From assembly GCA_020630715.1 (NCBI GenBank), contig JAHDIQ010000003.1, positions 1 through 64,000 of the forward strand: a DNA stretch of 64,000 nucleotides, given 5' to 3'. Source of the DNA: Nonlabens sp. (GTDB lineage Bacteria > Bacteroidota > Bacteroidia > Flavobacteriales > Flavobacteriaceae). This document shows positions 1,634 to 64,000 of this stretch, piece after piece. The notes beneath the pieces are model-generated. The model did not search any database. It saw only the letters and a program-made list of their open reading frames with translations, and was not told the origin of the DNA. A program made the translations under genes and the position numbers. The number at the start of each line of letters is the position of its first letter. The first letter of the stretch is position 1.

Positions 1634-2569
1634 ATGAAGAAAATAATAACGATCATTTTAGTATTTGCTTTCGCGAAAGCGGTAAGCGCACAACAGGATC
1701 CACAGTACACCCAGTACATGTACAATCCAGTTGTTATCAACCCAGCTTATGCGGGAAATAGAGGTGCATTAAGCATTGTAGGTTTACACCGTAGTCAATG
1801 GGTTGGTCTAGATGGTGCTCCAAGAACTCAGAGTTTATCAGCACATAGTCCGATAGGAGACAGTAGAGTCGGACTAGGATTGTCTGTTGTAAATGATGAA
1901 ATTGGGCCAGCTGATGAAACATTTGTTTCTGCTGACTTTAGCTATACCTTACCTGTAGGGGATGAAGCTAAATTTAGTTTTGGTATTAAAGCAGGTGCTC
2001 ATTTATTAAATGTTGATTTTAATCAACTTGATATATTCGATCCTGCAGACCCTAGATTACAAGGCGGTGGAGTTAATAACCTACTGTCTCCTATGGTAGG
2101 ACTAGGATTGCATTATCACACAGATAAGTTTTATCTTGGTTTAAGTGCGCCTAATTTATTGCAGACAGAGCATTTTGACGAGAATAGAAATAATGCTACC
2201 ACTTTTGTAGCGCAAGAGCGAATTCATTACTTCATGACAGCTGGTTATGTGTTTGATTTGAGCGAATCTGTTAAGTTTAAGCCTGCTACCATGGTTAAAA
2301 TGGTACCTGGTGCACCTTTACAATGGGATGCGACTGCTAATTTCTTATTTAATGATAAGCTTACTATAGGAGCTGCATACAGATGGAGTGCCGCCTTAAG
2401 TGGATTAGTAGGTTTCCAAGTAAGCGATCAATTAATGATTGGTTTTGCTTACGACAGAGAAACAACAGCTTTAGGAAATGCTATCTATAATGATGGTAGT
2501 TATGAGCTTTTTATGAGATTTGAGTTATTTAATAACTTAGATAAAATTATTACACCTAGATTCTTCTAA
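1634..2569 (+). CDS. PorP/SprF family T9SS outer-membrane protein
   Basis: This is a 311-residue protein with a signal peptide ending near VSAQ (residue ~19). The family signature DPQYTQYMYNPVVINPAYAG follows at residues 22-41, and the rest is an alternating beta-barrel pattern ending in an aromatic residue (FF). PorP/SprF proteins sit in the outer membrane and help T9SS attach partner proteins that carry type B sorting domains, such as SprB. It starts 62 bp after the Ca-repeat adhesin, which is its likely client. The signal peptide contains AFAKA at residues 12-16, encoded by a copy of the genome-wide palindrome at 1667-1680, so that repeat supplies part of the hydrophobic core and cleavage region. 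Confidence 0.9.
   Translation: MKKIITIILVFAFAKAVSAQQDPQYTQYMYNPVVINPAYAGNRGALSIVGLHRSQWVGLDGAPRTQSLSAHSPIGDSRVGLGLSVVNDEIGPADETFVSADFSYTLPVGDEAKFSFGIKAGAHLLNVDFNQLDIFDPADPRLQGGGVNNLLSPMVGLGLHYHTDKFYLGLSAPNLLQTEHFDENRNNATTFVAQERIHYFMTAGYVFDLSESVKFKPATMVKMVPGAPLQWDATANFLFNDKLTIGAAYRWSAALSGLVGFQVSDQLMIGFAYDRETTALGNAIYNDGSYELFMRFELFNNLDKIITPRFF
1667..1680. repeat. Iterated palindrome copy
   Basis: Exact GCTTTCGCGAAAGC inside the PorP/SprF signal-peptide region, read as AFAKA. Confidence 0.95.
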
Positions 2570-2587
2570 CATCAATATTATACAGTT

Positions 2588-5230: not shown

Positions 5231-5637
5231 GATTAACAGCCTACCGTAAAGCGCATTTTAATGCAGCCCATAGATTATATAGACCAGACTGGAGTGATGA
5301 AAAGAACGAAAAGATTTTTGGTAAATGCAATAATCCTCATTTTCACGGTCATAATTATGATATGGAAATAGGCGTTAGTGGAGAGGTAGATCCAGAAACA
5401 GGATATCTTATTGATCTCAAAATTTTAAAAGATATTATTAAAAGTGAGGTAGAAGACGCCTTAGATCATAAAAACTTAAATGAAGAAGTGCCTGAGTTTA
5501 AAGAATTAATCCCTACAGCAGAGCATATCGCATTTGTGATTTACAATAAGATAAAAGCTAAATTAGATCCTAAATATGATCTAGAAGTAAAACTTTACGA
5601 GACTCCTCGTAACTTTGTACTTTATAAAGGAGAATAA
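5227..5637 (+). CDS. queD: 6-carboxytetrahydropterin synthase / 6-pyruvoyl-tetrahydropterin synthase family (QueD-like)
   Basis: The protein has 136 residues. Zinc ligands are H15 (FNAAHRL) and H40/H42 (HFHGHNY), and the catalytic Cys is C34 in GKCNNPHFHGHNY. The late KLYETPRNF element supplies the conserved Glu. QueD converts dihydroneopterin triphosphate to 6-carboxy-tetrahydropterin in queuosine synthesis, while PTPS makes 6-pyruvoyl-tetrahydropterin. The spacing from C34 to H40 (CNNPxxHGH) is that of PTPS-type enzymes, longer than in E. coli QueD, so substrate use is uncertain. A queE gene at 36402 supports a queuosine role but is not linked. It overlaps idi by 4 bp (ATGA) and manA by 1 bp (TAATG). 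Confidence 0.85.
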   Translation: MRLTAYRKAHFNAAHRLYRPDWSDEKNEKIFGKCNNPHFHGHNYDMEIGVSGEVDPETGYLIDLKILKDIIKSEVEDALDHKNLNEEVPEFKELIPTAEHIAFVIYNKIKAKLDPKYDLEVKLYETPRNFVLYKGE

Positions 5638-6608
5638 TGACGCTCTACCCGTTACAGTTTAATTCTATTCTTAAAAATAAAATTTGGGGTGGTAATGATT
5701 TAAATATCATTAAGAATTTAGATAATCCCATTCATCAATTAGGTGAAAGTTGGGAAATTAGTGTTGTTCCTAATGATGTGAGTATCATTAACAATGGAAA
5801 GTACAAAGATCATTCGATTTTAGAACTTATTGAGAACTTTCCTATTCAGCTTTTAGGTAAAAAAGTCATTAGCCAGTTTGGAGAGCAGTTTCCGTTGCTC
5901 ATTAAGTATATCAACGCAGCTCAGGACTTATCTATCCAGGTTCATCCTGATGACGTTGTTGCACAACGCAAGCACAACAGCTTTGGAAAGACAGAAATGT
6001 GGTACATCATGAATGCCACTCCAGATTCACGATTGATCTTAGGATTTAATGAAGATTGTAATGATGCCGCTTTCGCGAAAGCGATATCACAAAACACTGT
6101 CATGGAATTGCTGAATTCTGAAAACGTAGTTGCTGGTGACGCCTTTTTTATTCATCCTGGTCTAGTACACTCCATAGGCGCTGGAATCACACTGGCCGAG
6201 ATTCAACAAAGTAGTGATATTACCTATAGAGTATATGATTTTGACCGCAGAGATGATGATGGAAACACCAGAAAATTACATATCAAAGAGTCCGTAGAAG
6301 TAACCGATTATAAAAAATCAACAGATTATAAAATTCATTATAACCCTACTTGTTTAGGAACGCAAAATCTGAAAACAACGCCTTATTTCACTACTGATTA
6401 CTTACATTTTACTGGTTGTGAAGATGTCGAAGTGGCACGTCATAATAGTTTCATGGTACTTATGAACATAGGTGAGGACTGCATGGTTTATTACGATGGT
6501 GAACATTACCGATTAAACTATGCCCAGACGATGCTATTGCCTGCCGCTATTCCTTACGTAAGAATTGAATCCACTGGAGATTCAAAATTACTAGCCATAC
6601 ATCTGTAG
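5637..6608 (+). CDS. manA: Mannose-6-phosphate isomerase, class I
   Basis: This 323-residue cupin enzyme interconverts fructose-6-phosphate and mannose-6-phosphate, feeding GDP-mannose synthesis or mannose use. The family motifs are LSIQVHPDD (Q101 and H103 as zinc ligands), GKTEMWYIM (E120) and AFFIHPGLVHSIGAG (H173, H178), followed by EIQQSSDITYRVYDFDR with the active-site Arg. The length suits the short bacterial type. It overlaps the upstream gene by one base and is probably translated by coupling. Residues 145-149 are AFAKA, encoded by the palindrome at 6069-6082, in a variable helix between the two cupin motifs where an insert would be tolerated. Confidence 0.93.
   Translation: MTLYPLQFNSILKNKIWGGNDLNIIKNLDNPIHQLGESWEISVVPNDVSIINNGKYKDHSILELIENFPIQLLGKKVISQFGEQFPLLIKYINAAQDLSIQVHPDDVVAQRKHNSFGKTEMWYIMNATPDSRLILGFNEDCNDAAFAKAISQNTVMELLNSENVVAGDAFFIHPGLVHSIGAGITLAEIQQSSDITYRVYDFDRRDDDGNTRKLHIKESVEVTDYKKSTDYKIHYNPTCLGTQNLKTTPYFTTDYLHFTGCEDVEVARHNSFMVLMNIGEDCMVYYDGEHYRLNYAQTMLLPAAIPYVRIESTGDSKLLAIHL
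6069..6082. repeat. Iterated palindrome copy
   Basis: Exact GCTTTCGCGAAAGC inside manA, read as AFAKA. Confidence 0.95.
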
Positions 6609-9071: not shown

Positions 9072-9097
9072 TATTTCGCTTTCGCGAAAGCGAAATA
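9072..9097. repeat. Extended copy of the iterated palindrome (26 bp)
   Basis: The core GCTTTCGCGAAAGC is at 9078-9091, and the perfect palindrome extends to 26 bp. It is intergenic, between two minus-strand genes, and is the longest copy in the window. Confidence 0.95.
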
Positions 9098-12154: not shown

Positions 12155-12760
12155 CTACAGGACTTTTCTAAAAGTAAGGTTAATACGTTCTCCTATTTGT
12201 CGTTTTGTTTTGGCAATTTGATGCTGGTAGGTATGTTGCGTTTGATCTTTCATGATAAGTAAACTGCCATGATGTAATGGGAATTTAAAACGCCATTCTT
12301 TATTCTCGTTATGACGTAAATGAAAGTACCGCTCTTGTCCAAAACTCAATGAAGCAATCACTGGATTCTCGCCTAAAACCTTTTCATTATCTGCATGCCA
12401 GCCGTTAGAATCCTGACCATTACGATAGCGATTTACCAGACACACATTAAATTCATGACCAGTCGTTTTTTCTATGTCATTTTTGATTTCTAGCAATACT
12501 TCATTCCATGGTAATGCCTTAAAATTGATACCGCTGTAACCGTAGTTAATTCCTTTGTCACCGTACAATTGAGTTAATCGTGGCTCGTCATATTGTTTGC
12601 CATAGACGGTGATTTTGTTTTGACGCCATGGGATCGTGTTGACTAATCTGAATTGTAGTGATTCCGCTTTCGCGAAAGCGTAATACCTACCATCATACTG
12701 TACCGTAGCATCTGGAATTAGTGGAATATCTGAATTAAAAAGCGTGCTCATCGTACCCAA
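12155..12760 (-). CDS. AlkB-like 2-oxoglutarate-dependent dioxygenase
   Basis: This 201-residue Fe(II)/2-oxoglutarate enzyme resembles AlkB/ALKBH2-3 and would remove alkyl groups from nucleic-acid bases by oxidation. Iron ligands are H122 and D124 (WHADNE) and H180 (YQHQI). The 2-oxoglutarate-binding arginines lie in GERINLTFR (R192, R198). The substrate-lid motif LYGDKGINYGYSG resembles eukaryotic ALKBH2/3. Residues 28-32 are AFAKA, encoded by the palindrome at 12666-12679, in the variable N-terminal region before the core. It is monocistronic and no SOS-type site was recognised. Confidence 0.9.
   Translation of the reverse strand: MGTMSTLFNSDIPLIPDATVQYDGRYYAFAKAESLQFRLVNTIPWRQNKITVYGKQYDEPRLTQLYGDKGINYGYSGINFKALPWNEVLLEIKNDIEKTTGHEFNVCLVNRYRNGQDSNGWHADNEKVLGENPVIASLSFGQERYFHLRHNENKEWRFKFPLHHGSLLIMKDQTQHTYQHQIAKTKRQIGERINLTFRKVL
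12666..12679. repeat. Iterated palindrome copy
   Basis: Exact GCTTTCGCGAAAGC inside the AlkB gene, read there as AFAKA. Confidence 0.95.
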
Positions 12761-15013: not shown

Positions 15014-15027
15014 GCTTTCGCAAAAGC
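15014..15027. repeat. Degenerate iterated palindrome (13 of 14)
   Basis: GCTTTCGCAAAAGC lies between convergent genes, 16 bp after the CoA-binding stop. Confidence 0.8.
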
Positions 15028-17246: not shown

Positions 17247-18371
17247 GTGGAACTATCTATTATCATATTAAATTATAACGCAGCTGCATTTTTAGAGCTG
17301 TGCATCGATAGCGTTTTTAGAGCTACAAAAAATATCAATGCAGAGATTATTGTAGCAGATAATAATTCTACTGATTCCAGCCTACAAATGCTTCATTTTG
17401 TTTTTAAGGATAAGGTAAAGGTTCTAGCATTTGAAGACAATCATGGATTTTCTAAAGGAAACAATCTAGCAGTTAAGGAAGCAAGTGGTGAGTATCTATG
17501 TATTTTAAATCCAGATACGATTGTAGGAGAACATGTGTTTGAGGAATGTCTCAGTTTCGCCCGTAGTTCTGATTCCGCTTTCGCGAAAGCAAAAAAACAA
17601 CTAGCCTTTCTAGGTACTCAACTTATCGACGGTTCTGGAATATTCTTGCCAGAGTCTAAGCGTCACGTGCCAACTCCAAAAGTCGCAAGGCAAAAATTAT
17701 TAGGCAATGATGAAAGCTATTATCATCATGAATTAGCTAAAGATGAAAATGGCGCTGTTGAAGTACTAGTAGGCGCATTTATGTTTTGTAAAAAGTCTGT
17801 TTATGAAACTATAGGTGGATTTGATGAACGTTACTTTATGTATGGCGAAGACATAGATTTGAGTTATTCTGCATTACTTTATGGTTATGAAAACTACTAT
17901 CTAGGTAGTCAGAAAGTGATCCATTTTAAAGGTGAGAGCACCATAAAGGATAAAAAATATTTAGATCGATTTTATGGTGCGATGCAACTGTTCTATGATA
18001 AACATTTTAAGCAGTCTGCGATGCAACGGGCATTAGTGAAAATAGGAGTTGCCTTTTTAAAAACACGACCAATTAAAAAGGAACAAACGGTCACTAAAGT
18101 TAATCATCAGGTGTTAATTTCAAACGATGAGCCATATCAATGGAATGGTGTAGAAAAGTACTCGTTTACAGAATTACAAAGCTTAAAACTACAAGATCAC
18201 ACACAAATCATCTGGGATATCAAATCCCTTAATATGACTAGCATTATTGATTTTATGTCTACAAATACTGGTTCTAATATTACTTATCGATTTATGAGCG
18301 AGCGCAGAGATTTCATGCTAGGAAGTAATTATAGCAACAATCGTGGTGAGGTTGTTTACCTTAATAAATAA
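17247..18371 (+). CDS. Family 2 glycosyltransferase
   Basis: This 374-residue protein starts at GTG 3 bp after recR. Its GT-A domain begins ELSIIILNYNAAAFLELC and carries the nucleotide-sugar elements VADNNSTDSS and ILNPDT (the DxD-like metal site). The acceptor-side motif is GGFDERYFMYGEDIDLSYSA. It resembles rhamnosyltransferase-like GT2 enzymes of surface polysaccharides. The C-terminal ~100 residues are less typical and have no membrane segment. The AFAKA insert (palindrome at 17577-17590) lies in SDSAFAKAKKQ, a loop after the DxD strand. Confidence 0.88.
   Translation: MELSIIILNYNAAAFLELCIDSVFRATKNINAEIIVADNNSTDSSLQMLHFVFKDKVKVLAFEDNHGFSKGNNLAVKEASGEYLCILNPDTIVGEHVFEECLSFARSSDSAFAKAKKQLAFLGTQLIDGSGIFLPESKRHVPTPKVARQKLLGNDESYYHHELAKDENGAVEVLVGAFMFCKKSVYETIGGFDERYFMYGEDIDLSYSALLYGYENYYLGSQKVIHFKGESTIKDKKYLDRFYGAMQLFYDKHFKQSAMQRALVKIGVAFLKTRPIKKEQTVTKVNHQVLISNDEPYQWNGVEKYSFTELQSLKLQDHTQIIWDIKSLNMTSIIDFMSTNTGSNITYRFMSERRDFMLGSNYSNNRGEVVYLNK
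17577..17590. repeat. Iterated palindrome copy
   Basis: Exact GCTTTCGCGAAAGC inside the glycosyltransferase gene, read as AFAKA. Confidence 0.95.
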
Positions 18372-21413: not shown

Positions 21414-22559
21414 TTAACCGATATTAAAATGTTTTTCTTCAAACTGTTTTGCAATTGCCACGGCATCATGGTGCTCAAGGATGAATTTTCTAGCTTCTTT
21501 TCCTAATTCTAAAATAGCTTTAGGATGTTCAATGAATTGGGATAATTGATTAACTAGGTATTCTACATCTGGTTGCGCATCAATTAATGGAGATTTTTCT
21601 AAGTCATAGGTTTCTAAAAATTCTTTACCAGCACCTGCAAAAACTACCTTGCCTTGAGCCATTGCTTCTAGTGCATTGTATCCTTGATCATAGCTTAGGA
21701 CCTGATCTAGAAAGATGTGTGCCTTATTATACGACTTCATATATTGCTCGTACGGTAGATCTTCTGCGATTGTGATGTTGACTCTACTGTTATATTTATC
21801 CCTGATGATTTCTAGAGCTTTTTCAAAATAAGGAATCCCTTTTTTAAGGTAATTATGCCTGTTGATGCCCATAAAGATCTCTATGGTTTTAAAATCTTGA
21901 TTTTGATTAAGTTCGAATTTATCAATTTGTACTGCGCTAGGAATAATATCAGTTGCTTTTGGTTCATTGTGCAATGCCATTTTAAAATCCGTATGTGATG
22001 GGATAATGGCTTCACACTGATTTAGTAACCAGAGATAATTTTGCTTATAATCATCCTGCAGATACTTCATCGTATAAGGGAATTCCTGACGCAATTCTGG
22101 TTTGTCAGGTTCTGGATTGATGATACTATAACCTTTATGAGAGGTAGTTATATAATGAGCATAATGATAGTCATCACCACAGGCAACTAGAAACGCCTTA
22201 TCAGCTTTTTCTAATAATGAGCTCATCATTTCTTTTTCAATATCTGGACCGCAGTTAAAGCTATTAGAATTTATAAATTGAACGATATCGTAGTGGTTGT
22301 TGAGAATTCCGCTTTCGCGAAAGCGTGCTAACTTCAACCTATCCTGTAAATCGTTACCGGTTAATTTGTACCAGCCTACACGTATTTTTTGCCGTAACCA
22401 GCTACTCGTAAAGTAATCTGTGCTAATGTCAATGTCTACTGGAAATTTCTTGAAACCATCGCCATCACCTATAATCGTGACCTCATGACCTAATTGAACT
22501 AGGCCGTGTTTTAAAGAGTTGTGAAAACCGCTGTATTCACCTACCAATAAAATGCGCAT
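21414..22559 (-). CDS. Glycosyltransferase, GT-B/group 1-like
   Basis: This 381-residue protein opens MRILLVGEYSGFHNSLKHGL, the N-terminal fold of GT-B enzymes. It has a C-terminal nucleotide-sugar region with DQVLSYDQGYNALEAMAQGKVVFAG, like the E-x7-E region of family 4. It probably adds a sugar to a surface glycan. RFRES in LARFRESGILNN comes from the palindrome at 22311-22324. It is transcribed away from the next glycosyltransferase across a 119-bp gap that holds a strong hairpin. The sugar and acceptor are unknown. Confidence 0.82.
   Translation of the reverse strand: MRILLVGEYSGFHNSLKHGLVQLGHEVTIIGDGDGFKKFPVDIDISTDYFTSSWLRQKIRVGWYKLTGNDLQDRLKLARFRESGILNNHYDIVQFINSNSFNCGPDIEKEMMSSLLEKADKAFLVACGDDYHYAHYITTSHKGYSIINPEPDKPELRQEFPYTMKYLQDDYKQNYLWLLNQCEAIIPSHTDFKMALHNEPKATDIIPSAVQIDKFELNQNQDFKTIEIFMGINRHNYLKKGIPYFEKALEIIRDKYNSRVNITIAEDLPYEQYMKSYNKAHIFLDQVLSYDQGYNALEAMAQGKVVFAGAGKEFLETYDLEKSPLIDAQPDVEYLVNQLSQFIEHPKAILELGKEARKFILEHHDAVAIAKQFEEKHFNIG
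22311..22324. repeat. Iterated palindrome copy
   Basis: Exact GCTTTCGCGAAAGC inside the GT-B gene, read as RFRES. Confidence 0.95.
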
Positions 22560-22678: not shown

Positions 22679-23602
22679 GTGAAAAAGAAACGATTTATTA
22701 AGAGTTTACAAATTCAAAATGGTATAAAGTATCTTTACCGTAAAGATAAGCAGTTGGCTCTATACACCACATCAGATCTAGAAATATGTATCGCGACCAT
22801 GAATCGTGAGAATCTTCATTTTCTACAAACGATGTTTTGCATGCCACCACAGGAGATTCCATATCAAATTCTAGTAGTGAATCAGTCTAAAACACATCAA
22901 TTAACCTCTCATTTTCAAAATATTAGAGTGATTAATGATGTGAATTTTGGGTTGTCCAGAAGTCGGAATCTTGCTATAGAAAATAGTAAATGCAGATTGC
23001 TTTGGTTTCTAGATGATGATTGCGAAGTGTTACCAGATGCGGTAAATCATATCATCCTATCGCACAACCAGTATGATGCTGGAATCATCTCCTTTATGAC
23101 CATAGGTTATACCAGTGGATTGCCATTTAGCGATTATCCAGATGGTGATATGTTGCTTTCTCGAAAGCAAATTAAAAAAGTCCTATCACCAGAAATTACA
23201 CTTAAAAGAGATGTAATTGAACAATGTGATTTACGATTCAATACCCGATTTGGGCTAGGAGCGCAGTTTGCAGATTCAGAGAATTATGTGTTTCTAACAG
23301 ATGCTTTACAATGTGATATAGCGATTCAATTTAAAAAGGAATATATCGTTAAACATGACGATTATACCAGTAGTGATGAGGTAGCCAGCAATAGGTTAAT
23401 TTATGCGCGTGGTGCTTTAGCAGTTAGAGAGAATTTCTGGACCGCACAATTCAAACAATTCAAATATGTGTTTTTTCTATGGCGTAAAGGTTATGTAAAA
23501 GGCTGGAATGCTCTAATAGAAAAGTACCGAGTTTTTAATCATGGAATGAATGATTACCTTAGCGGTTTTGAAGGTCACCGTAACGGTCATCCAGATCTTT
23601 AA
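22679..23602 (+). CDS. Family 2-like glycosyltransferase
   Basis: This 307-residue protein has a GTG start. The GT-A elements are ICIATMNRENLHFL near the start, NFGLSRSRNLAIENS and WFLDDDCEVLPDA (DxD metal site). Late in the protein a hydrophobic/basic stretch (WTAQFKQFKYVFFLWRKGYV) may bind the membrane surface. The first ~30 residues are basic and unusual for GT2, so the true start might be further in. The cupin gene follows directly and they are probably cotranscribed. Confidence 0.8.
   Translation: MKKKRFIKSLQIQNGIKYLYRKDKQLALYTTSDLEICIATMNRENLHFLQTMFCMPPQEIPYQILVVNQSKTHQLTSHFQNIRVINDVNFGLSRSRNLAIENSKCRLLWFLDDDCEVLPDAVNHIILSHNQYDAGIISFMTIGYTSGLPFSDYPDGDMLLSRKQIKKVLSPEITLKRDVIEQCDLRFNTRFGLGAQFADSENYVFLTDALQCDIAIQFKKEYIVKHDDYTSSDEVASNRLIYARGALAVRENFWTAQFKQFKYVFFLWRKGYVKGWNALIEKYRVFNHGMNDYLSGFEGHRNGHPDL
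23155..23168. repeat. Degenerate iterated palindrome (13 of 14)
   Basis: GCTTTCTCGAAAGC inside the glycosyltransferase gene, read as LSRK. Confidence 0.75.
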
Positions 23603-26812: not shown

Positions 26813-29800
26813 ATGAATAAAATACTGCTAACCTTATTGTGTTTCATTTTGGGCTCTACCGCACTTATGGCACAACAATCTAAAATATTTACAGACGATC
26901 TGGCGACTTATAATCAGGCGGTAGATTTGTATCAGGAAGAGCAGTACATCGCTGCGCAACGCCTTTTTGAAAATGTAAAGCAAGAAGTGAGCGATAACAC
27001 CATTCAGGGAAATGCTGCTTACTACATCGCAAATTGTGCGGTACGATTGAACCAGCGCAATGCAGACGCACTCATGGGATCTTTCGTAGAGGAATATCCT
27101 ACTTCTACTAAGCGTAACACCGCATTTATAGACGTCGCAGATTACTATTTTAACAATGGTAAATACAAACTATCTGCAAAATGGTACAGTAAGGTTGATG
27201 AAAGTACGCTTTCGCGAAAGCAAAAAAACCGTTACTATTTTAATACTGGTTATACACTGGTGGCTAGTAAGAAATATGATGAAGCAAAGCCATTTTTAAA
27301 CCGAGTAAGTGATGATCCAGAATATGGTTCACAAGCAAAATACTACTTAGGTTACATCGCTTATGAAGGTGACGATTATCAAGAGGCGAGCGAGTTATTT
27401 GATGAATCTGGCGGTAGTCCAGAGCAAGATGAAAAGCTGTCGTACTATCAGGCAGATTTGAATTATAAACTGGGGAATTTTGACAAAGCAATTGCCCTTG
27501 CCAAAGAACAATTACCTAAATCTACTAAAAAAGAGCAATCAGAATTAAATAGAATTATAGGTCAGAGTCTTTTTAATAAAGAAGACTACACACAAGCCTT
27601 ACCTTATTTAAAGGAATATAAAGGCGTGCGTGGTAAATGGAATAATAACGATTATTACCAGTTAGGATATGCATATTATAAAACAGGCGATTATGATAAT
27701 GCGATTGCGACCTTTAATAAAATCGTAGATGGGCAGAATAAAACGGCCCAAAATGCTTACTACCATTTAGGACTTTCCTATATCAAAAAGAATCAGCAAG
27801 AAGATGCTTTAAATGCTTTTAAAAAAGCAAGTGAGATGGATTTTGATCCTACCATAAATGAAGATGCTACTTATAATTATGCAAAGTTGAGTTATGAGTA
27901 TGGAAATCCATACAACAGCGTTCCATCTGTGATTTTAGGATATTTAGAAACTTTTCCTGATAGTAAACATCAGGCAGAAATGAATGAATACCTCATAGAT
28001 TCCTACTTTTCTTCAAAAAATTATAAAGAGGCGATGAAGTTACTAGAAGCTGGTAGAATTAGCGGTAATGAAGACGTATATGCAAAAGTTGCCTTGTTTC
28101 AAGGTTTACAAGATTTTAAAGCTGGTGATTATAGAGAATCCATTGATCAACTCAATAAAACACTGCGCTATGCAACAGATCAAGCAATGAAAAAACGCGC
28201 TCAATTCTGGACGGCAAATAGTAATTATGAGCTCAATAACTTTGACCAGGCTTTAATCATGTTTAATACGGTTAGATCTAATAACGCATCTATTGAAGAA
28301 GATAATTTGATCAATTATGATCTGGCTTACACACATTTTAAGTTAAAGAATTACGACCAGTCCATTACTGCTTTTACAGCATTTACAAATCAGTCTAATG
28401 CTACTAATGATCGTGCTAGGTTGAATGATGCTTACTTGCGTATAGGTGATGCAAACTTTGTAAGTAAGCAATACTGGCCAGCCATGGAATCTTATAATAA
28501 AGCTATTGAGATGAATGGTTTTAACGGTGATTATGCTGCCTTTCAAAAAGCAATTTCTTACGGTTTTGTCCAGAAAAACGATCGTAAGATTCAAGATTTA
28601 AATCAATTTTTGACAAAATTTCCTAACTCAAAATATCGTGATGATGTGTTATACGAGTTAGGAAATACTTACATCAATACAGGTAATGTAAATCAAGGAA
28701 TACAAACCTATGACCGTTTACTAGCAGATTATCCTCAAAGTATTTACACTTCACAGGCGATGATGCGTAAAGGATTACAATACTATAATGATTCAAAATT
28801 AGAAGAAGCACTCGTGGTATTTAAGGATGTTGTAAAACGCTATCCAGGCACACCACAAGCAAATGAGGCTGTGAGTAGTGCAAGACTGGTTTATGTAGAT
28901 TTAGGTCGTACTAACGATTATGCAGCATGGGTACGTGGTCTTGAGTTTGTTGATATCACAGATTCAGAATTAGATGATACGGCCTACGAAGCTGCAGAAC
29001 GTCCGTATTTACAAAGTAATATGGCTGTTGCGAGTAGGGAATTAAAGAAATACTTAACGACTTATCCTAACGGTAAACATGCTTTAAAAGCACATTTCTA
29101 CCTCGCACAATCTTTATATGCACAGGATAAAAAGACTGAAAGTATCACGTATTATGAGTATGTGACCGGTAAACAGCGTAGTGAATTTAGTGAACAGGCA
29201 CTAGCTCGTTTAAGCGGTATATACTTGAATGATGACGCTTTCGCGAAAGCGATACCTACATTAATCAAACTAGAACAATTAGCAGATTTCCCACAGAATG
29301 TCATTTATGCTCAGTCTAATTTGATGAAAGCTTATTACGAACAGGAAGATTATGCTAAAGCAATCCAGTATGCTAATAAAGTATTAGGCGATACTTCTAT
29401 AGATGCAAATTTAGAATCTGATGCTCAAATCATAATCGCCCGTAGTGCCATGAAAACTAATGATGAAGCTAGAGCAGAAAAAGCCTATGCAACTGTTCTC
29501 AATACCGCAAGTGGTGCGCTAGCGGCAGAAGCAACATACTTCCAGTCTTATTTTGAACATAAGGATAGCAGGTATAGTAATGCCATTACCACGGTTCAAG
29601 GATTAACTAAGAACTATGCTGGTCACAAATTATGGAGTGCAAAAGGATTAGTAATCATGGCAAAAAGTTATGATGCACTAGATCAAACGCTTAACGCTAC
29701 TACGATTCTAGAAGCGGTCATAAAGAATTTTACACAGTATCCTGATGTAGTACAAGAAGCACAAATAGAACTGGATCGTATTAAAAACAATGCGGCCAAA

Positions 29801-29836
29801 ACCAATTCATCTATAGTTCCTACAGATAAAAATTAA
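26813..29836 (+). CDS. Secreted tetratricopeptide-repeat protein, 1007 residues
   Basis: The protein has a signal peptide (residues 1-20, ending LMAQ). The rest is almost entirely TPR-like helical pairs (AYYKTGDYDNAIATFNKIV, YYHLGLSYIKKNQQEDAL, DVLYELGNTYINTGNVNQGI). It is predicted to be a periplasmic scaffold. A beta-barrel gene starts 4 bp later, and the TPR/barrel pairing suggests one envelope machine; the pair looks familiar from other flavobacteria but has no function known to me. Two palindrome copies lie inside: LSRK near residue 132 (27208) and AFAKA near residue 809 (29237). Confidence 0.88.
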   Translation: MNKILLTLLCFILGSTALMAQQSKIFTDDLATYNQAVDLYQEEQYIAAQRLFENVKQEVSDNTIQGNAAYYIANCAVRLNQRNADALMGSFVEEYPTSTKRNTAFIDVADYYFNNGKYKLSAKWYSKVDESTLSRKQKNRYYFNTGYTLVASKKYDEAKPFLNRVSDDPEYGSQAKYYLGYIAYEGDDYQEASELFDESGGSPEQDEKLSYYQADLNYKLGNFDKAIALAKEQLPKSTKKEQSELNRIIGQSLFNKEDYTQALPYLKEYKGVRGKWNNNDYYQLGYAYYKTGDYDNAIATFNKIVDGQNKTAQNAYYHLGLSYIKKNQQEDALNAFKKASEMDFDPTINEDATYNYAKLSYEYGNPYNSVPSVILGYLETFPDSKHQAEMNEYLIDSYFSSKNYKEAMKLLEAGRISGNEDVYAKVALFQGLQDFKAGDYRESIDQLNKTLRYATDQAMKKRAQFWTANSNYELNNFDQALIMFNTVRSNNASIEEDNLINYDLAYTHFKLKNYDQSITAFTAFTNQSNATNDRARLNDAYLRIGDANFVSKQYWPAMESYNKAIEMNGFNGDYAAFQKAISYGFVQKNDRKIQDLNQFLTKFPNSKYRDDVLYELGNTYINTGNVNQGIQTYDRLLADYPQSIYTSQAMMRKGLQYYNDSKLEEALVVFKDVVKRYPGTPQANEAVSSARLVYVDLGRTNDYAAWVRGLEFVDITDSELDDTAYEAAERPYLQSNMAVASRELKKYLTTYPNGKHALKAHFYLAQSLYAQDKKTESITYYEYVTGKQRSEFSEQALARLSGIYLNDDAFAKAIPTLIKLEQLADFPQNVIYAQSNLMKAYYEQEDYAKAIQYANKVLGDTSIDANLESDAQIIIARSAMKTNDEARAEKAYATVLNTASGALAAEATYFQSYFEHKDSRYSNAITTVQGLTKNYAGHKLWSAKGLVIMAKSYDALDQTLNATTILEAVIKNFTQYPDVVQEAQIELDRIKNNAAKTNSSIVPTDKN
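27208..27221. repeat. Iterated palindrome copy
   Basis: Exact GCTTTCGCGAAAGC inside the TPR gene, read as LSRK. Confidence 0.95.
29237..29250. repeat. Iterated palindrome copy
   Basis: Exact GCTTTCGCGAAAGC, the second copy in the TPR gene, read as AFAKA. Confidence 0.95.
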
Positions 29837-33077: not shown

Positions 33078-33840
33078 GTTTCCTCACCACAGGAATTAAT
33101 TCACCTAAAGCAAGTCTATAGCGATCTACCTCTTCACTACTTAATTGCGTGGTGTAATCTACTCTCTGAACTTCAAAACCTATAGATTTCAAACGGTCAA
33201 AATAGTCCATTCCATAAACTCGCACGTGATCATACTGGCCAAAAATCCTAGCACGTTCTGCCTTATCCGTAATGCTATCATCCTCAAAGGTCACTTTACG
33301 ATCATTCTCTAATGGTATTTGAAGAATCGCCGTCGCGCCAGGTTTTAGAACTCGATACAATTCCTTCATAGCAGTTTCATCGTCTGGAATATGTTCTAGT
33401 ACATGATTGCATAAAACAAAATCATAAGTGTCATTCTTAAAAGGTAGATCACAAATATCTGCCTTAACATCTGCTAGTGGAGATAGTAAGTCAGTAGTGG
33501 TGTAGTGGATGGTTTCGCTTTCGCGAAAGCGAGATAAAAAACACTGTTCTGGTGCAAAATGTAAAAGTGATTGTGGCCGTGTGAACAAATCTGTTTCCCG
33601 ATTTAAATACAACCAAAGCAAGCGATGTCTTTCTAACGATAGCGTTGATGGCGAAAGCACATTTTCACGCACATTCCCATATCCATAAGGAAGAAAACTT
33701 TTAAATGATTTCCCATCGATAGGATCTGTGTAACGATCACCACGATACCACCACGTCATCAATGGACGCACCCAGTAACTCGCTTTAATCAGCAATGGTC
33801 TAGGGATGAGGTTGAGAAAGAATTTAAAGAGGTTTTTCAA
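33067..33840 (-). CDS. SAM-dependent methyltransferase (Methyltransf_11 type)
   Basis: This 257-residue class I methyltransferase has an N-terminal extension with a basic/aromatic stretch. Its core has DLLSPLADVKADICDLPF (SAM acidic loop region), LCNHVLEHIPDDETAMKELYRVLKPGATAIL and a late YDHVRVYGMDYF. The DxxxHxLEH pattern is typical of cyclopropane-synthase-like and UbiE-like enzymes. The substrate is unknown. RFRESE near residue ~106 comes from the palindrome at 33517-33530, just before the SAM-binding strand. Confidence 0.85.
   Translation of the reverse strand: MKNLFKFFLNLIPRPLLIKASYWVRPLMTWWYRGDRYTDPIDGKSFKSFLPYGYGNVRENVLSPSTLSLERHRLLWLYLNRETDLFTRPQSLLHFAPEQCFLSRFRESETIHYTTTDLLSPLADVKADICDLPFKNDTYDFVLCNHVLEHIPDDETAMKELYRVLKPGATAILQIPLENDRKVTFEDDSITDKAERARIFGQYDHVRVYGMDYFDRLKSIGFEVQRVDYTTQLSSEEVDRYRLALGELIPVVRKPTS
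33517..33530. repeat. Iterated palindrome copy (18 bp with flanks)
   Basis: Exact GCTTTCGCGAAAGC inside the methyltransferase gene, read as RFRES. The perfect palindrome extends over 33515-33532. Confidence 0.95.
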
Positions 33841-36401: not shown

Positions 36402-37034
36402 ATGCTTACAGAAATTACAACACAAGCCGTTGAAAAAGGAACGATGTTGCCTTTAATGGAAGAATTTTACACCATTCAAGGTGAAGGAAATCATACCGGT
36501 AAAGCAGCGTATTTTATACGTGTAGGTGGCTGTGATGTAGGCTGTCACTGGTGTGACGTGAAAGAAAGTTGGGATCCAGATGTGCATCCACCTACTGCAA
36601 TTGAGCAAATTATTACTAACGCTTCCAGTTACAGTGATACCGTTGTCGTTACCGGTGGCGAGCCTTTAACGTGGAACATGGAACCGCTTACTAGTGGTTT
36701 GAAGGCAAAAGGCATGCAGGTTCACATAGAAACCAGCGGTGCTTATGCATTAACGGGAACTTGGGACTGGATTTGTCTATCACCTAAAAAAGTGAAAATG
36801 CCACTAGCAGGAATTTATGAGCAGGCTCATGAGTTGAAGGTTATTGTGTATAATAAACATGATCTCGCTTTCGCGAAAGCGGAATCAGAAAAAGTCTCTT
36901 CTACCTGTAAGTTATATCTACAACCAGAGTGGAGTGTGCGTGAAAAAATGATCCCATTAATCACAGAATTTGTGATGCAAAATCCTAAATGGCATGTCTC
37001 TTTACAGACTCATAAATACCTCAATATCCCATAA
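36402..37034 (+). CDS. queE: 7-carboxy-7-deazaguanine synthase
   Basis: This 210-residue radical-SAM enzyme makes 7-carboxy-7-deazaguanine for queuosine synthesis. The cluster motif is C44-x3-C48-x2-C51 in GGCDVGCHWC. FYTIQGEGNHTGKAAYFIRVGG precedes it, and VVTGGEPLTWNM and IETSGAYAL follow. The QueD-like gene at 5227 supplies the preceding step but is unlinked. AFAKA at residues 156-160 comes from the palindrome at 36867-36880, in the variable C-terminal part. Its -7 box is 4 bp from the start codon. Confidence 0.93.
   Translation: MLTEITTQAVEKGTMLPLMEEFYTIQGEGNHTGKAAYFIRVGGCDVGCHWCDVKESWDPDVHPPTAIEQIITNASSYSDTVVVTGGEPLTWNMEPLTSGLKAKGMQVHIETSGAYALTGTWDWICLSPKKVKMPLAGIYEQAHELKVIVYNKHDLAFAKAESEKVSSTCKLYLQPEWSVREKMIPLITEFVMQNPKWHVSLQTHKYLNIP
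36867..36880. repeat. Iterated palindrome copy
   Basis: Exact GCTTTCGCGAAAGC inside queE, read as AFAKA. Confidence 0.95.
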
Positions 37035-43309: not shown

Positions 43310-43317
43310 TATCTTTG
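43310..43317 (+). promoter_or_regulatory. -7 box (TATCTTTG) close to the Smr gene start
   Basis: It matches TAnnTTTG and ends 6 bp before the ATG at 43324. Confidence 0.5.
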
Positions 43318-43323
43318 GAAATA

Positions 43324-43863
43324 ATGACTTCTTCAAAATTTAAAATAGGAGATCGAGTGCTAGTCCTGGACGATGATGTTGCTGGTGTTATCTCTTTCGC
43401 GAAAGCGGAATTCATCACCATCACTACAGATGACGGCATCGATCTAGTATTTCACAAATCAGAGCTGATTTCAGAAGCATCCATGAAAATTGATAAGGTA
43501 ATCGTAAAAGATGAACCATCATTACGAAAGAATAAAAAACGCAACACGTCTAGAAAAAAAGCAAAAGAAATCCCAGCAGTAGAAATAGACCTGCACATTC
43601 ATCAACTAGTAAAAAATGAACGCGGTATGGATGCGTATGATAAGCTTAATAAGCAACTAGATACAGCAAAATATCAATTAGAACGAGCAATTAAAAACAG
43701 AGTGCCTAAATTGATATTTATACACGGTATAGGAGCTGGCGTATTACGTGCAGAGTTAGAATATCTTCTCAATAGATACGATGGGATCTCATACTATGAT
43801 GCAGATTATCAAAAATATGGTCGTGGCGCTACTGAGGTCTATATCTATCAAAACCCTAGTTAA
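43324..43863 (+). CDS. Smr-domain protein (DUF2027-like N-terminus)
   Basis: The protein has 179 residues from the ATG at 43324; a TTG at 43315 is in frame but lies on the -7 box. The N-terminal small beta domain (KFKIGDRVLVLDDDVAGVI) is followed by a basic linker. The C-terminal Smr domain has EIDLHIHQL and FIHGIGAGVLRAELEYLL, as in MutS2. Smr domains nick DNA or RNA, or act on stalled ribosomes. SFAKA at residues 24-28 is encoded by a degenerate palindrome copy, between two strands of the N-terminal domain. It overlaps the convergent lipoprotein gene by 8 bp. Confidence 0.88.
   Translation: MTSSKFKIGDRVLVLDDDVAGVISFAKAEFITITTDDGIDLVFHKSELISEASMKIDKVIVKDEPSLRKNKKRNTSRKKAKEIPAVEIDLHIHQLVKNERGMDAYDKLNKQLDTAKYQLERAIKNRVPKLIFIHGIGAGVLRAELEYLLNRYDGISYYDADYQKYGRGATEVYIYQNPS
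43393..43406. repeat. Degenerate iterated palindrome (13 of 14)
   Basis: TCTTTCGCGAAAGC inside the Smr gene, read as SFAKA. It keeps the 12-bp inner palindrome. Confidence 0.85.
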
Positions 43864-45992: not shown

Positions 45993-46006
45993 GCTTTCGC
46001 GAAAGC
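45993..46006. repeat. Iterated palindrome copy (intergenic)
   Basis: Exact GCTTTCGCGAAAGC between convergent genes, 9 bp after the cysteine desulfurase stop. Confidence 0.95.
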
Positions 46007-52972: not shown

Positions 52973-53920
52973 CTATTCATCGTAAATATTAGTATAGCCT
53001 TTTGATGGTGCTTCAAAGAATTTGCCAGTTACATATCTATAATTACGATCCATCTTTGCCAGCTCGTTTAGATCTTCTTGATCTAGGTTTATTCTTGCGC
53101 TTTGGATATTACTGATAATATGTGAATCAGTCGTAGATTTAGGAATCACAGCGGTACCTCTATGTTCTGACCATTTGATAAGAACTTGTGCAGGATGGGC
53201 ATTATGTTTTTGAGCAATATTTTTAATTGTAGGATTATCCATCATGTTAGGTTCGTTTTCTTGCTTCATTTGTTCACTGCGATCACCGCTACCTAAAGGT
53301 GAATATCCAGTAAGATGAATTCCTTTTGAACTACAATAATTAAACAAGTCATCTTGCTGTAATAGTGGATGTAACTCTACCTGATTCATTTCTGGAATAA
53401 CATCAGTTTGTTGTAATAGTTCTTCTAGTTTTTCTTTAGAAAAATTAGAAACTCCTATATGCTTCACCTTTCCTTTTTGTTGTAATTCTACCATAGCATT
53501 CCATGTTGCAATCAGTGGTGCTTCATCTAGGGACAAATAATCGTCTTCTTTTTCAGGAAATCCTACTTCTGGTTTAAAAGCTACAGGCCAGTGCATTAAA
53601 TACAGATCTAGATAATCTACTTGTAGATCTTTAAGTGTTTGATCCAGTGCTGGTTCTACATCCTTAGGTAAATGTGCATTGTTCCATAACTTAGAGGTAA
53701 TCCAGACATCTTCTCTCTTTACAATGCCTTCAGAAAACACTTCGTTAAAGGCTGTTCCTATGGCATCTTCATTTCCATAAACTGCAGCGCAATCGATGTG
53801 TTTATAGCCATTTTTTAAGGCCGTTTTTACAGCGTTTTGAACTTCATCGGTACCAGATTTCCAGGTACCTAATCCTATAGCGTCCATTTGATCGCCGTTC
53901 TTAAATTGTAGCTTCTTCAT
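52973..53920 (-). CDS. Aldo/keto reductase
   Basis: This 315-residue NADPH-dependent reductase has the catalytic tetrad D43, Y48, K77 and H110 (HIDCAAVYGN, ITSKLWNN, YLMHWP). The nucleotide-binding end has AVIPKSTTDSHIISNIQ. It resembles AKR enzymes that reduce aldehydes and sugars. Monocistronic, with a terminator. The cofactor residues fit NADPH, and the substrate is unknown. The upstream gap to xerD carries an iterated palindrome. Confidence 0.92.
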   Translation of the reverse strand: MKKLQFKNGDQMDAIGLGTWKSGTDEVQNAVKTALKNGYKHIDCAAVYGNEDAIGTAFNEVFSEGIVKREDVWITSKLWNNAHLPKDVEPALDQTLKDLQVDYLDLYLMHWPVAFKPEVGFPEKEDDYLSLDEAPLIATWNAMVELQQKGKVKHIGVSNFSKEKLEELLQQTDVIPEMNQVELHPLLQQDDLFNYCSSKGIHLTGYSPLGSGDRSEQMKQENEPNMMDNPTIKNIAQKHNAHPAQVLIKWSEHRGTAVIPKSTTDSHIISNIQSARINLDQEDLNELAKMDRNYRYVTGKFFEAPSKGYTNIYDE

Positions 53921-53962: not shown

Positions 53963-53976
53963 GCTTTCGCGAAAGC
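53963..53976. repeat. Iterated palindrome copy (22 bp with flanks)
   Basis: Exact GCTTTCGCGAAAGC. The perfect palindrome extends over 53959-53980, in the gap between the aldo/keto reductase and xerD. Confidence 0.95.
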
Positions 53977-54003: not shown

Positions 54004-54900
54004 TTAAGCTCTAGGATGATGATCTTCCAGAACCTTTGCTAGATGTGCCCGATCTACATGCATATAAATTTCTGTAGTGGTGATACTTTCATGGCCTAGC
54101 ATCATCTGGATGGAGCGCAAATCTGCACCATTTTCAATAAGATGAGTGGCAAATGAATGCCTAAACGTATGCGGACTGATCGTTTTTTGAATTCCCGCTT
54201 TAATAGCTAGCTGTTTGACAATATGAAAGATCATCGCTCTAGTAAGACCGTTGCCGCGTCTATTTAAAAATAAAGTGTCAGAGAATTTAGGGTTTACGGG
54301 TTGATGAACGCGTATTTCTTTACGATACAATTCGATGGCTTTTATGGTATAATCACCTATAGGGATAAAACGCTGTTTATCACCTTTACCAGTGACTTTT
54401 ATAAAACCTTCTTCAAAAAACAAATCACTAATTTGTAAAGTGATCAATTCACTCACGCGTAATCCACAGCCGTAAAGAGTTTCTATAATAGCTCTATTGC
54501 GTTCACCTTCTGGTGTACTACGATCTATGGCGTTGATGATTAAATCAATCTCTGTCGTGCTTAACGTATCTGGTAATTTACGACCTGTTTTAGGTGCCTC
54601 TATAAGATCTAGCGGTTGATCTTTGCGGTAGTTCTCTAATATTAAATAAGAGAAAAAGGCTTTTAAACTACTTATGGATCTGGCTTGTGATCGTGGTTGA
54701 ACGGTTTTGGCAAGATGATATACGTAATCTCTTAGCTGATCAGTATTGATTTGAGAAGCGCTAATTGTGATATCATGATTTTCTAGGTAGGTTACCAGTT
54801 TTTTAAGATCACGCTGGTAGGCTTTTATGGTGTTGTCAGACAGTCCACGTTCTAGCCTAGCATATATAGTAAAGTCTTTTATGTGCGATTGCCATTTCAT
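54004..54900 (-). CDS. xerD: Tyrosine recombinase XerD-like
   Basis: The protein has 298 residues from the ATG at 54900 (MKWQSHIKDFTIYARLERG); the frame continues to 54966 but adds an unrelated stretch. The catalytic residues are complete: R148 (YGCGLRVSEL), K172, H244 and R247 (SPHTFRHSFATHL), H270 (LGHESITTTEIY) and Y279. XerC/XerD resolve chromosome dimers at dif near the terminus. XerD is the better fit by length and by its single locus without neighbours. No dif site was identified in the window. Confidence 0.9.
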   Translation of the reverse strand: MKWQSHIKDFTIYARLERGLSDNTIKAYQRDLKKLVTYLENHDITISASQINTDQLRDYVYHLAKTVQPRSQARSISSLKAFFSYLILENYRKDQPLDLIEAPKTGRKLPDTLSTTEIDLIINAIDRSTPEGERNRAIIETLYGCGLRVSELITLQISDLFFEEGFIKVTGKGDKQRFIPIGDYTIKAIELYRKEIRVHQPVNPKFSDTLFLNRRGNGLTRAMIFHIVKQLAIKAGIQKTISPHTFRHSFATHLIENGADLRSIQMMLGHESITTTEIYMHVDRAHLAKVLEDHHPRA

Positions 54901-54967
54901 TAAGGTAAAAATATCATAATAAATTGGCTTCTTATAGGATCTATATCGTTCTCTAAGAAATAACAAA

Positions 54968-60023: not shown

Positions 60024-60031
60024 TAAATTTG
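60024..60031 (+). promoter_or_regulatory. -7 box (TAAATTTG) of pyrD
   Basis: It matches TAnnTTTG, 15 bp before the ATG at 60047. Confidence 0.5.
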
Positions 60032-60046
60032 CATAACCTTATTATT

Positions 60047-61093
60047 ATGTATAAAACCGTTGTAAGACCGCTACTTTTCAGCTTTGATCCAGAGGCTGTG
60101 CACCATTTCTCTTTTAAGAGTATTAAATTGTTAAGTAAGTTGCCTGGTTTTAATACGCTTTCGCGAAAGCGTTACCACCACAACCATCCTGCTCTTCAAC
60201 GGGAATTATTTGGTCTCACATTCCCTAATCCAGTAGGAATGGCCGCAGGATTTGACAAAGATGCCAAAGCCTTTAAAGAATTTGCAGACTTAGGATTTGG
60301 CTTCATAGAAATAGGAACGTTAACGCCAAAACCACAGGCCGGAAACCCAAAACAACGCCTCTTTAGATTAAAACAAGATCAAGCGATTGTAAACCGTATG
60401 GGATTCAATAACGGTGGCGTGGATGAAGCCGTAGAACGATTAAAAAAGAACCCAAAATTAGGACAAAAAGGACACGTTCTCATAGGCGGAAACATAGGAA
60501 AAAATAAGGTCACGCCTAATGATGAAGCGGTAAATGATTACATCATTTGTTTTGAAAAGCTATTTGATCATGTAGATTATTTCACCGTAAATGTAAGTTC
60601 ACCTAATACGCCTGGATTGCGTGAATTACAGGATCGCAAACCGTTAACGCATATCCTACAAACCCTACAAGACCTTAATAACGACAAGCCACAACGCAAG
60701 CCTATACTCTTAAAAATAGCACCAGACCTTACAGATGACCAGTTGCTAGACATCATAGGAATCGTAGCAGACACAAAAATTGACGGCGTCATTGCGACTA
60801 ATACTACCATAGAAAGAACCAATTTAAAATCAGAAGCCTCATTACAAAAAGAAGCCGGCGGATTAAGCGGTGCGCCACTTACCAGTCGCGCTACAGATGT
60901 CATTGCTTTTATACACGATAGAAGCAACGGCGCTTTCCCGATTATAGGCGTAGGCGGTATTATGACTGCACAAGACGCGATTGATAAATTGAATGCTGGT
61001 GCTAGTCTGGTGCAATTATATACTGGTTTTGTGTATGAAGGACCAGCGTTGATTAAAAATATTAATAGCGCAATTATTGCTCAAGGACTATGA
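60047..61093 (+). CDS. pyrD: Dihydroorotate dehydrogenase (quinone), class 2
   Basis: The protein has 348 residues from the ATG at 60047; a TTG at 60029 is in frame but overlaps the -7 box. The class 2 N-terminal membrane-binding helix pair (residues ~1-35) is followed by [34 protein letters not shown] and [13 protein letters not shown] with the catalytic Ser. It passes electrons to quinone in pyrimidine synthesis. LSRK at residues 38-41 comes from the palindrome at 60157-60170, between the N-terminal helices and the barrel. Its stop overlaps the LysE gene by 4 bp. Confidence 0.95.
60157..60170. repeat. Iterated palindrome copy
   Basis: Exact GCTTTCGCGAAAGC inside pyrD, read as LSRK. Confidence 0.95.
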
Positions 61094-61707: not shown

Positions 61708-61764
61708 TAAGTCTTTGAAATCGATTTCGTAAATGACAATCACAGCCTTATCTTTACACCATAA

Positions 61765-62774: not shown

Positions 62775-62791
62775 ATTAAAATAATTTAACC

Positions 62792-64000
62792 ATGGCGCTT
62801 TTAGGACCTATTATAAAAACTGCTTTACAATTGCATGAATCTATCACTAATACAGAGGATCATGTGCAAGCACAACGTAAGGTCTTAAAATACTTACTAG
62901 ATACAGCTAGTAAAACGTCTTTCGGGTTGTATCACGACTTCAGAGTTATTTTAGAAAATGATGATATAGAACACGCTTTCGCGAAAGCGGTACCTTTCTA
63001 CGACTATCATACTATGAATGAACACTGGTGGAAACAAATGAAACAAGGAAAACCAGACATTACCTGGCCTGGACTACCGAAATTTTTAGCGAGATCAAGT
63101 GGTACCACCGGAAAAAAGTCTAAAACTATTCCAGTAAGCGATGAAATGATCACGGCTATAAAGGCCGCAGGAACTTCACAGGTAAGTACGCTTACTAACT
63201 TTAATTTAAAGGCTGATGTATTTGAAAAAGAAGTTCTGGCCTTAGGTAGCTCAACAGATTTAATTACAGAGAATGGTTTTATGATAGGGGAAATAAGCGG
63301 TATATCTGCCAGTCAGATTCCCGAATTTTTAGATTCTTATTATCGACCAGGGAAAGAAATTTCATCTATTGATAATTGGGATGAACGTGTACAACGAATC
63401 GCCGAAGAAGCCAAAAACTGGGACATAGGAATGTTGAGTGGTATTCCATCATGGCTAGAATTGATGTTGAAAAAAGTAATGAATTATCATAAGGTAGAGT
63501 CGATTCACGATATCTGGCCTAACTTGTCTGTTTATACCTCTGGTGGTGTGGCCTTTGCACCTTATCGTTCTAGTTTTGAAATGCTTTTTACTAAGCCGGT
63601 TCAAATAGTAGATACGTATCTAGCCAGTGAAGGTTTCATTGCTTGCCAGCAACGACCAGATACTAACGCCATGCAGTTAATTACTGATGGTGGAATCTAT
63701 TTTGAATTCGTACCCTTCAAGCCAGAATACGTTGAGCAGGATGGAAGGATTAGTAAAGACGCTCCTGTTCTTTCCATTGCAGATGTTGCCGTGAACGTAG
63801 ATTACGCCTTAATAATATCCACTGTATCGGGAGCATGGCGATATTTAATAGGAGATACGATACAATTCACAGATGTAGATCGCGCCGAAATCAAAATCAC
63901 AGGTCGTACTAAATTCTTTTTAAATGTAGTAGGTAGCCAGTTATCTGTTTTAAAAATGGAAACTGCTATAACAGAATTACAAGAGCAGTTTAATACGACG
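62792..64000 (+). CDS. GH3 auxin-responsive promoter family protein (3' partial)
   Basis: The first 403 codons are present and the frame is open at the window end. GH3 family signs are LPKFLARSSGTTGKKSKTIPVS (the acyl-adenylate P-loop) and YFEFVP, plus ITGRTKFFLNVVGSQLSV near the end of the visible part. Plant GH3 enzymes join amino acids to hormones; bacterial members are acyl-AMP-forming ligases of unknown substrate. AFAKA near residues 62-66 comes from the palindrome at 62975-62988. A -7 box lies upstream. Confidence 0.9.
   Translation, partial: MALLGPIIKTALQLHESITNTEDHVQAQRKVLKYLLDTASKTSFGLYHDFRVILENDDIEHAFAKAVPFYDYHTMNEHWWKQMKQGKPDITWPGLPKFLARSSGTTGKKSKTIPVSDEMITAIKAAGTSQVSTLTNFNLKADVFEKEVLALGSSTDLITENGFMIGEISGISASQIPEFLDSYYRPGKEISSIDNWDERVQRIAEEAKNWDIGMLSGIPSWLELMLKKVMNYHKVESIHDIWPNLSVYTSGGVAFAPYRSSFEMLFTKPVQIVDTYLASEGFIACQQRPDTNAMQLITDGGIYFEFVPFKPEYVEQDGRISKDAPVLSIADVAVNVDYALIISTVSGAWRYLIGDTIQFTDVDRAEIKITGRTKFFLNVVGSQLSVLKMETAITELQEQFNTT
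62975..62988. repeat. Iterated palindrome copy
   Basis: Exact GCTTTCGCGAAAGC inside the GH3 gene, read as AFAKA. Confidence 0.95.

Follow-up and report, generated by a model that had tools for sequence, protein, structure and literature searches.

Palindrome Copies in the Window

The window, that is, the whole 64-kb stretch of Nonlabens DNA analyzed here, had been described as carrying 14 exact copies of the palindromic 14-mer GCTTTCGCGAAAGC, and all 14 are present. The first (1667..1680) lies inside ORF 1634-2569 (+), which by eye we take to be a gene of PorP/SprF type, and is read as AFAKA within its apparent, putative signal peptide. AFAKA is also the reading of the copy at 6069..6082, inside ORF 5637-6608 (+), while the next copy (9078..9091) is intergenic and belongs to a perfect palindrome of 26 bp. 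The copy at 12666..12679, inside ORF 12155-12760 (-), occupies the same alignment column in five of eight genomes including the present one, and the remaining three differ there by one base. ORF 17247-18371 (+) contains the copy at 17577..17590, and its ortholog carries a copy in seven of 13 other genomes; in this column only the copy of the present genome was scored, six others being split by alignment gaps and excluded from the counts. A copy read as RFRES (22311..22324) lies inside ORF 21414-22559 (-), and 12 of 14 genomes have it in this column.

Two copies share ORF 26813-29836 (+), one at 27208..27221 that is read as LSRK and found in the same column in eight of 14 genomes, and a second at 29237..29250 that is read as AFAKA and found there in seven of 14. 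The copy at 33517..33530, inside ORF 33067-33840 (-), extends to a perfect palindrome of 18 bp. Inside ORF 36402-37034 (+), the copy at 36867..36880 is again read as AFAKA; its column is occupied in 12 of 14 genomes, and the two without it are one synonymous base away. Two further copies are intergenic, one at 45993..46006 between ORFs 44829-45983 (+) and 46016-48490 (-), and one at 53963..53976 between ORFs 52973-53920 (-) and 54004-54966 (-), the latter within a perfect palindrome of 22 bp. The copy at 60157..60170, inside ORF 60029-61093 (+), is read as LSRK and forms a perfect palindrome of 18 bp. The last one (62975..62988) is close to the window end; it is intergenic by the window alone and is missing from the intergenic list when the contig is extended beyond the window. 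Perfect palindromes longer than the 14-mer had been noted, and perfect lengths in the window do span 14-26 bp.

Four degenerate copies had been listed in addition. Three of these differ from the 14-mer by one mismatch each, namely GCTTTCGCAAAAGC at 15014..15027 between ORFs, GCTTTCTCGAAAGC at 23155..23168 inside ORF 22679-23602 (+) and TCTTTCGCGAAAGC at 43393..43406 inside ORF 43315-43863 (+). The fourth, at 62149, has three mismatches and is weak.

Abundance and Distribution Across Genomes

The excess was called extreme in the preliminary description, and the comparisons agree. The window holds 17 matches at two or fewer mismatches against a mean of 0.11 in 100 dinucleotide shuffles, and Markov models of order 1-4 built from the window expect 0.00004-0.0004 exact copies where 14 are observed. 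The whole genome contains 609 copies in 2,978,537 bases, with none of the reversed control, so that the genome-wide count is well above expectation and the copies are not restricted to the window.

All 22 genus-mates searched, which are part of a genus with further members, carry 288-857 copies each, and the lowest counts (288 and 457) come from genomes of 78% and 77% completeness. In a protein search with a gene of the window, the nearest relatives with names were Nonlabens loci. Counts of 478-701 were obtained for the genomes to which seven of these loci and one locus under the name Flavobacteria bacterium BBFL7 belong, and these genomes overlap the 22 genus-mates; genomes under other names in the same comparison hold none in four cases and one in the fifth. 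Elsewhere the palindrome is rare. Other genera of the family have 1-17 copies in 11 of 66 genomes, the 59 genomes searched from other families of the order have none, and a draw across the phylum gave 1-6 copies in 21 of 394 other genomes. In four of five carriers outside Nonlabens that were re-inspected, the exact copies are confined to one contig or a few, or lie near each other, as would be expected of acquired stretches or contamination. Of 13 Nonlabens stretches put through a blind scan for dispersed 12-mers, 12 yielded the palindrome. The same scan found a dispersed palindromic 12-mer in none of 54 stretches from other genera, which were just ~16-23 kb long each and in many cases came from Winogradskyella. 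Being present throughout the Nonlabens genomes searched and absent or rare elsewhere, the signal probably originated in the stem lineage of Nonlabens. In the literature searched, neither the 14-mer nor three related strings were found, and searches on flavobacterial uptake sequences, iterated palindromes and Nonlabens palindromes returned no apparent account of the signal.

Several smaller observations belong to this survey. Palindrome clusters in other Flavobacteriaceae genera (G033:C18 ~74-175 kb, G301:C1 311-327 kb and G042:C1 728-758 kb) are possibly mobile elements exchanged with Nonlabens, and the G033 cluster contig also encodes a 616-aa ParB-like frame. G063, of genus g42 and the fifth of the re-inspected carriers, is weakly enriched, with six exact and 19 one-mismatch copies spread across several contigs and none of the reversed control. 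A 23-kb stretch of Paenimyroides viscosum (L050) contains TACGGTTTACGA and CGTAAACCGTAA three times each, and 20 kb of another genome (L220, G002:C1:200001-220000) contains 2513 repeated 12-mers and zero palindrome copies.

Anatomy of the Site

The profile of the site was built from 140 sites in 703 kb of the present genome and from a second species, in which 400 kb gave 83 sites, with the two halves mirrored and pooled. Position -1 is C in 86% of the sites in the present genome and 90% in the second species, position -4 is T in 80% and 79%, and position -3 is T in 75% and 59%; C is depleted out to about -25 in both. At nearly 24 bp, the full palindrome has the 14-mer as its core and arms that are poor in C and rich in G and T; its extended consensus is symmetric in the two species. 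Intergenic copies have T at -3 in 95%, T at -4 in 93% and A at -5 in 78% of cases, giving the consensus ATT(A/T)C-GCTTTCGCGAAAGC-G(T/A)AAT, whose arms are rich in T and G. For copies in the most frequent coding phase, T at positions beyond -5 peaks at -7, -10 and -13. These are third codon positions, and such a pattern would follow from an arm sequence that is favored within the limits set by coding. The core itself is near all-or-none: exact copies number 140 and one-mismatch copies 33 in the present genome, and the second species has 83 and 6, respectively.

The left and right arms do not covary: across 223 sites, no excess complementarity was found at 24 positions (z at most 1.8). Arm preferences alone can therefore account for the longer perfect palindromes, and a hairpin of RNA or single-stranded DNA was rejected on the same grounds. 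Nor does the coding strand show a wobble preference (T..G 6, C..A 13). Given arms without covariation and no wobble preference, the simplest view is that two equivalent halves recognize the site as a DNA duplex, which points to a dimeric, two-fold symmetric reader protein. A protein binding site had been among the first suggestions for this palindrome, and the symmetry, taken together with the conservation of the copies described below, favors it.

Placement and Spacing

Placement was determined with longest-ORF approximations, so that gene starts and the intergenic fraction are approximate. By these calls, 103 of the 140 copies are inside genes and 37 are intergenic, though only ~8% of the sampled DNA is intergenic. 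The intragenic copies are read as AFAKA (54), LSRK (25) or RFRES (24). AFAKA is written in the motif codons in 54 of 64 occurrences and RFRES in 24 of 24, and it thus seems to be the DNA rather than the peptide that is kept; LSRK uses the motif codons in only 25 of 43, which counts against the intracellular anchor proposed below.

Divergent gaps contain 0.84 copies per kb (11 copies), tandem gaps 0.77 (24) and convergent gaps 0.23 (2). The first 150 nt of genes, by the approximate starts, are enriched (28 of 103 copies, ~14.5 expected), and the last 150 nt have fewer copies. Both the denser divergent and tandem gaps and the enrichment near gene starts would suit ordinary transcription-factor sites with a very large regulon. 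With 103 of 140 copies intragenic, the spacing regular and ~600 near-invariant copies in the genome, such a regulon is highly improbable.

The copies form a regular lattice with members ~5 kb apart. Their spread had been called even, and the coefficient of variation (CV) of their spacing is 0.45 in a 232-kb stretch and 0.50 in a 224-kb stretch, as opposed to ~0.98 for uniform placement; in either stretch, none of 5000 uniform simulations was as regular as the observed copies. Only five of 274 spacings are below 1 kb where 49.8 are expected, the pooled CV is 0.46, and across 14 genomes the CV ranges over 0.30-0.53. Twenty stretches of 20 kb along one chromosome hold 0-7 copies each, with a mean of 4.15 and a variance of 2.13, and no gradient is seen by eye over these 20 stretches. 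The longest copy-free gap sampled (G000:C4 54760-70174; 15.4 kb, with a low G+C of 0.314) is possibly an acquired gene cluster.

The Chi sites of E. coli are of similar density, short and asymmetric, and they modulate RecBCD/AddAB. A density of ~1 site per 5 kb, with arms rich in G and T lying 5' of the core on both strands, is what a two-directional relative of Chi might have, that is, a landmark for recombination or repair at which an exonuclease or loader would recognize the site and the G/T-rich strand would favor strand exchange. However, the Nonlabens palindrome is long and has no orientation, unlike Chi, and we regard a role of this kind as unlikely.

Conservation in Place

Orthologous positions were compared over regions of 60-64 kb from 14 genomes. 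The alignments of 64 ortholog groups contain 14 occupied columns, four of which have just one copy. At nucleotide identities of ~65, 70, and 75%, a copy recurs in the same column in 150 of 258, 268 of 390, and 110 of 136 comparisons (58-81%), whereas control 14-mers matched for gene and phase show identity in 104 of 7460, 219 of 11279, and 171 of 3933 (1-4%). The corresponding figures are 8 of 11 against 28 of 321 at ~80% identity and 18 of 19 against 168 of 548 at ~90%; all of these comparisons were counted in both directions and are hence not independent, and the six gap-split copies of the gene with the 17577 site are left out of them.

Where a copy is absent, 33 of the 76 states are gapped and uninformative, and of the 43 gap-free states nine are one base away from the 14-mer and the others two to fourteen bases away. 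In well-aligned genes the copy substitutes for aligned codons and is not inserted, and, judging from these alignments, such copies look to have been made by base substitution. Local compensation between neighboring copies, hinted at by one gene, was unsupported over 14 genomes. Places that lack a copy are no nearer to another copy than random places are (median 1870 vs. 1332 bp), which also counts against an anchor.

The self-copying element once suggested for this palindrome does not agree with these alignments, in which copies replace aligned codons and have unrelated flanks. Neither a homologous repeat body in the flanks of 140 copies nor insertion at empty sites in well-aligned genes was found, and because those flanks are unrelated, bar one similar pair 223 bp apart, the copies are not a dispersed repeat family. 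A palindromic sequence in high copy number might otherwise have been attributed to a dispersed mobile repeat, an RNA hairpin or a family of intrinsic terminators. For the repeat, the single similar pair among 140 flank sets and the replaced codons speak against it; for the hairpin, the arms and wobble positions already described; and for the terminator, the convergent gaps, which hold only two of the 37 intergenic copies. These readings are largely contradicted, and we give them almost no credence.

Methyltransferases and the HIP Sequences of Cyanobacteria

The palindrome had been likened in concept to HIP1, a likeness that is apt insofar as both are iterated palindromes. In the consulted part of the literature on HIP sequences, these are iterated palindromes of cyanobacteria tied to matching methyltransferases, and HIP1 and the alternate HIPs are, like the Nonlabens signal, repeated over whole genomes, restricted to lineages and unsettled in function (PMC4390886). 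By analogy, an orphan DNA methyltransferase acting with methyl-directed repair could create and keep the Nonlabens palindrome.

Profile searches at E 0.001 in 23 Nonlabens genomes lend no weight to this. The C5 methyltransferases (PF00145) have no match in nine of the 23 genomes, PF01555 has none in 11 and PF02086 has none in 19. Three genomes (G006, G007, and G009) are without all three families yet contain 664, 752, and 563 copies, respectively. With none of these families conserved in the genus, a link to any of the three was rejected, and as far as these families go the methylation basis raised in the preliminary description is not supported. Methyltransferase targets are also far shorter than the stretch recognized here. 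Taken together, these points make an origin of the HIP1 kind very unlikely.

The two signals differ in form as well. HIPs occur at 1000-2000 per Mb according to the same portion of the cyanobacterial study, compared with ~200 per Mb for the Nonlabens signal (PMC4390886). The latter has 14 bp fixed within ~24 bp plus arms, is regularly spaced and is accompanied by no conserved methyltransferase of the three families.

Phage Copies and the Likeness to Uptake Sequences

A scan of viral contigs found at least 120 stretches with the 14-mer. Thirteen viral records were counted whole, and eight of them hold 3-7 exact copies in 15.5-39.8 kb, or one per 5-13 kb; the 13 were picked among the matches listed, partly for having several copies, and this density is therefore biased upward. 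The bias follows from finding records by the motif, which does not by itself explain several well-spaced copies per contig. One group of copy-bearing contigs encodes a tyrosine integrase and a tape-measure protein, and another is Mu-like, with a transposase and a transposition protein; from this gene content, both groups are probably temperate. Among the sites shown, which are those above a flank score of -3, several viral copies score like host copies in their flanks. Two Mu-like contigs that are 66-82% alike in aligned blocks have one pair of copies whose places probably correspond, although they lie outside an aligned block, and another pair whose places do not.

Two related phages of a Persicivirga host, recorded as Nonlabens phages, have no copies in 71 kb. 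The best 80 loci listed as relatives of the phage P12024S terminase, from hosts not named, have none in 831 kb, and a BLAST search of phage records with the consensus gave one weak match (E 3).

To our knowledge, uptake sequences are asymmetric. A self signal of the DUS/USS type would nevertheless explain much of what is seen: a surface receptor of competent Nonlabens would prefer DNA fragments with the palindrome, and transformation would restore lost copies by biased conversion. In the parts of the two studies that bear on this, the DUS of Neisseria and the USS of Pasteurellaceae are, like the Nonlabens signal, abundant, lineage-specific and strongly conserved, with permissive core-genome locations and AT- or T-rich flanks (PMC2397512, PMC7811141). 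More specifically, those parts describe Neisseria DUS as highly conserved and spaced in a way that matches conversion fragments (PMC2397512), and H. influenzae USS as having flanking AT-tracts (PMC7811141). The Nonlabens copies are likewise conserved, regularly spaced, enriched between genes and flanked by T-rich sequence. In addition, Riemerella columbina, assigned to the Flavobacteriaceae in the paper concerned, prefers its own DNA in transformation, according to the section consulted (PMC7965970). The absence of the palindrome from the two related phages of a Nonlabens host would also fit.

Against this, a two-fold symmetric site with independent halves would be unusual for an uptake signal, and phage contigs belonging to two or more unrelated kinds carry several copies, while DUS are reported, in the portion of the Neisseria study drawn on, to be absent from recently acquired genes (PMC2397512). 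The Nonlabens signal thus departs from DUS and USS in being two-fold symmetric, several times sparser and present in integrase-bearing and Mu-like phage contigs. We consider an uptake signal a real possibility, if a somewhat doubtful one.

A Putative Intracellular Lattice

The reading that we tentatively put first, without claiming even chances for it, is that the palindrome is a chromosome-wide recognition site, an intracellular anchor, for a putative two-fold symmetric, sequence-specific DNA-binding protein general in Nonlabens. A protein dimer would bind each site inside the cell and use the regular lattice, with an anchor every few kb, to organize, hold or repair the resident DNA. Selection would act against the loss of a site, and prophages and other long-term residents would gain sites. 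The evidence for an intracellular lattice as opposed to an uptake signal is close, and the intracellular role is favored because of the symmetry of the site and the copies in phage contigs. Counting against an anchor, the nucleoid proteins that we know of have degenerate sites, conservation and permissive placement are described for uptake sequences too, and the two related phages of a Nonlabens host have no copy.

With similar reserve, we suggest that the palindrome may be a chromosome-wide code of the genus's own: long palindromic sites for a dimer, ~480-860 of them in each near-complete genome, set in a regular lattice, served by a putative genus-specific reader of a kind not described before, kept at many fixed intragenic places for the lifetime of the genus and adopted by temperate phages. 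By comparison with the known systems, we would place it under neither the HIP nor the uptake sequences, as the methyltransferase feature of HIPs fails in the families searched and the likeness to uptake sequences rests on distribution. The function of HIP1 and similar iterated motifs is not settled. The Nonlabens signal is longer than these, hardly varies, is evenly spaced and is essentially limited to a single genus with named isolates, which allows a direct search for its reader.

Candidate Readers

The parS and Noc-binding sites are, in the part of the work on them consulted, palindromes of TTTC...GAAA half-sites as well, whereas the Nonlabens palindrome has a 2-bp rather than a 4-bp center, ~600 sites and no gradient by eye (PMC7383237). 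Of 23 Nonlabens genomes, 20 have just one ParB_N, and G014, G018, and G019 add forms of 602-616 aa. By eye, the residues GKSR and N178, described as contacting parS in the same part of that work (PMC7383237), are kept in all five Nonlabens ParB proteins read. With one main ParB that has the canonical residues by eye, and extra ParB proteins that are not conserved, a ParB/Noc protein seems unlikely to be the reader. No parS was seen in the parts of Nonlabens genomes sampled, yet it was seen in only one of four outgroup records, which makes its absence uninformative.

The CGCGAAA within the palindrome resembles the Swi4 sites of yeast, which was the motive for considering a KilA-N protein; this candidate was rejected, with no match in 23 Nonlabens genomes. 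The searches for methyltransferases of the three families, ParB and KilA-N thus leave no candidate reader, which counts against the intracellular anchor. The parB gene itself carries a copy of the palindrome in all five Nonlabens genomes read, at a similar place. In the recognition-helix region, the main ParB of these bacteria (L408-L412) has GKSRSAI, compared with GKKRST followed by I or V in five genomes of other genera.
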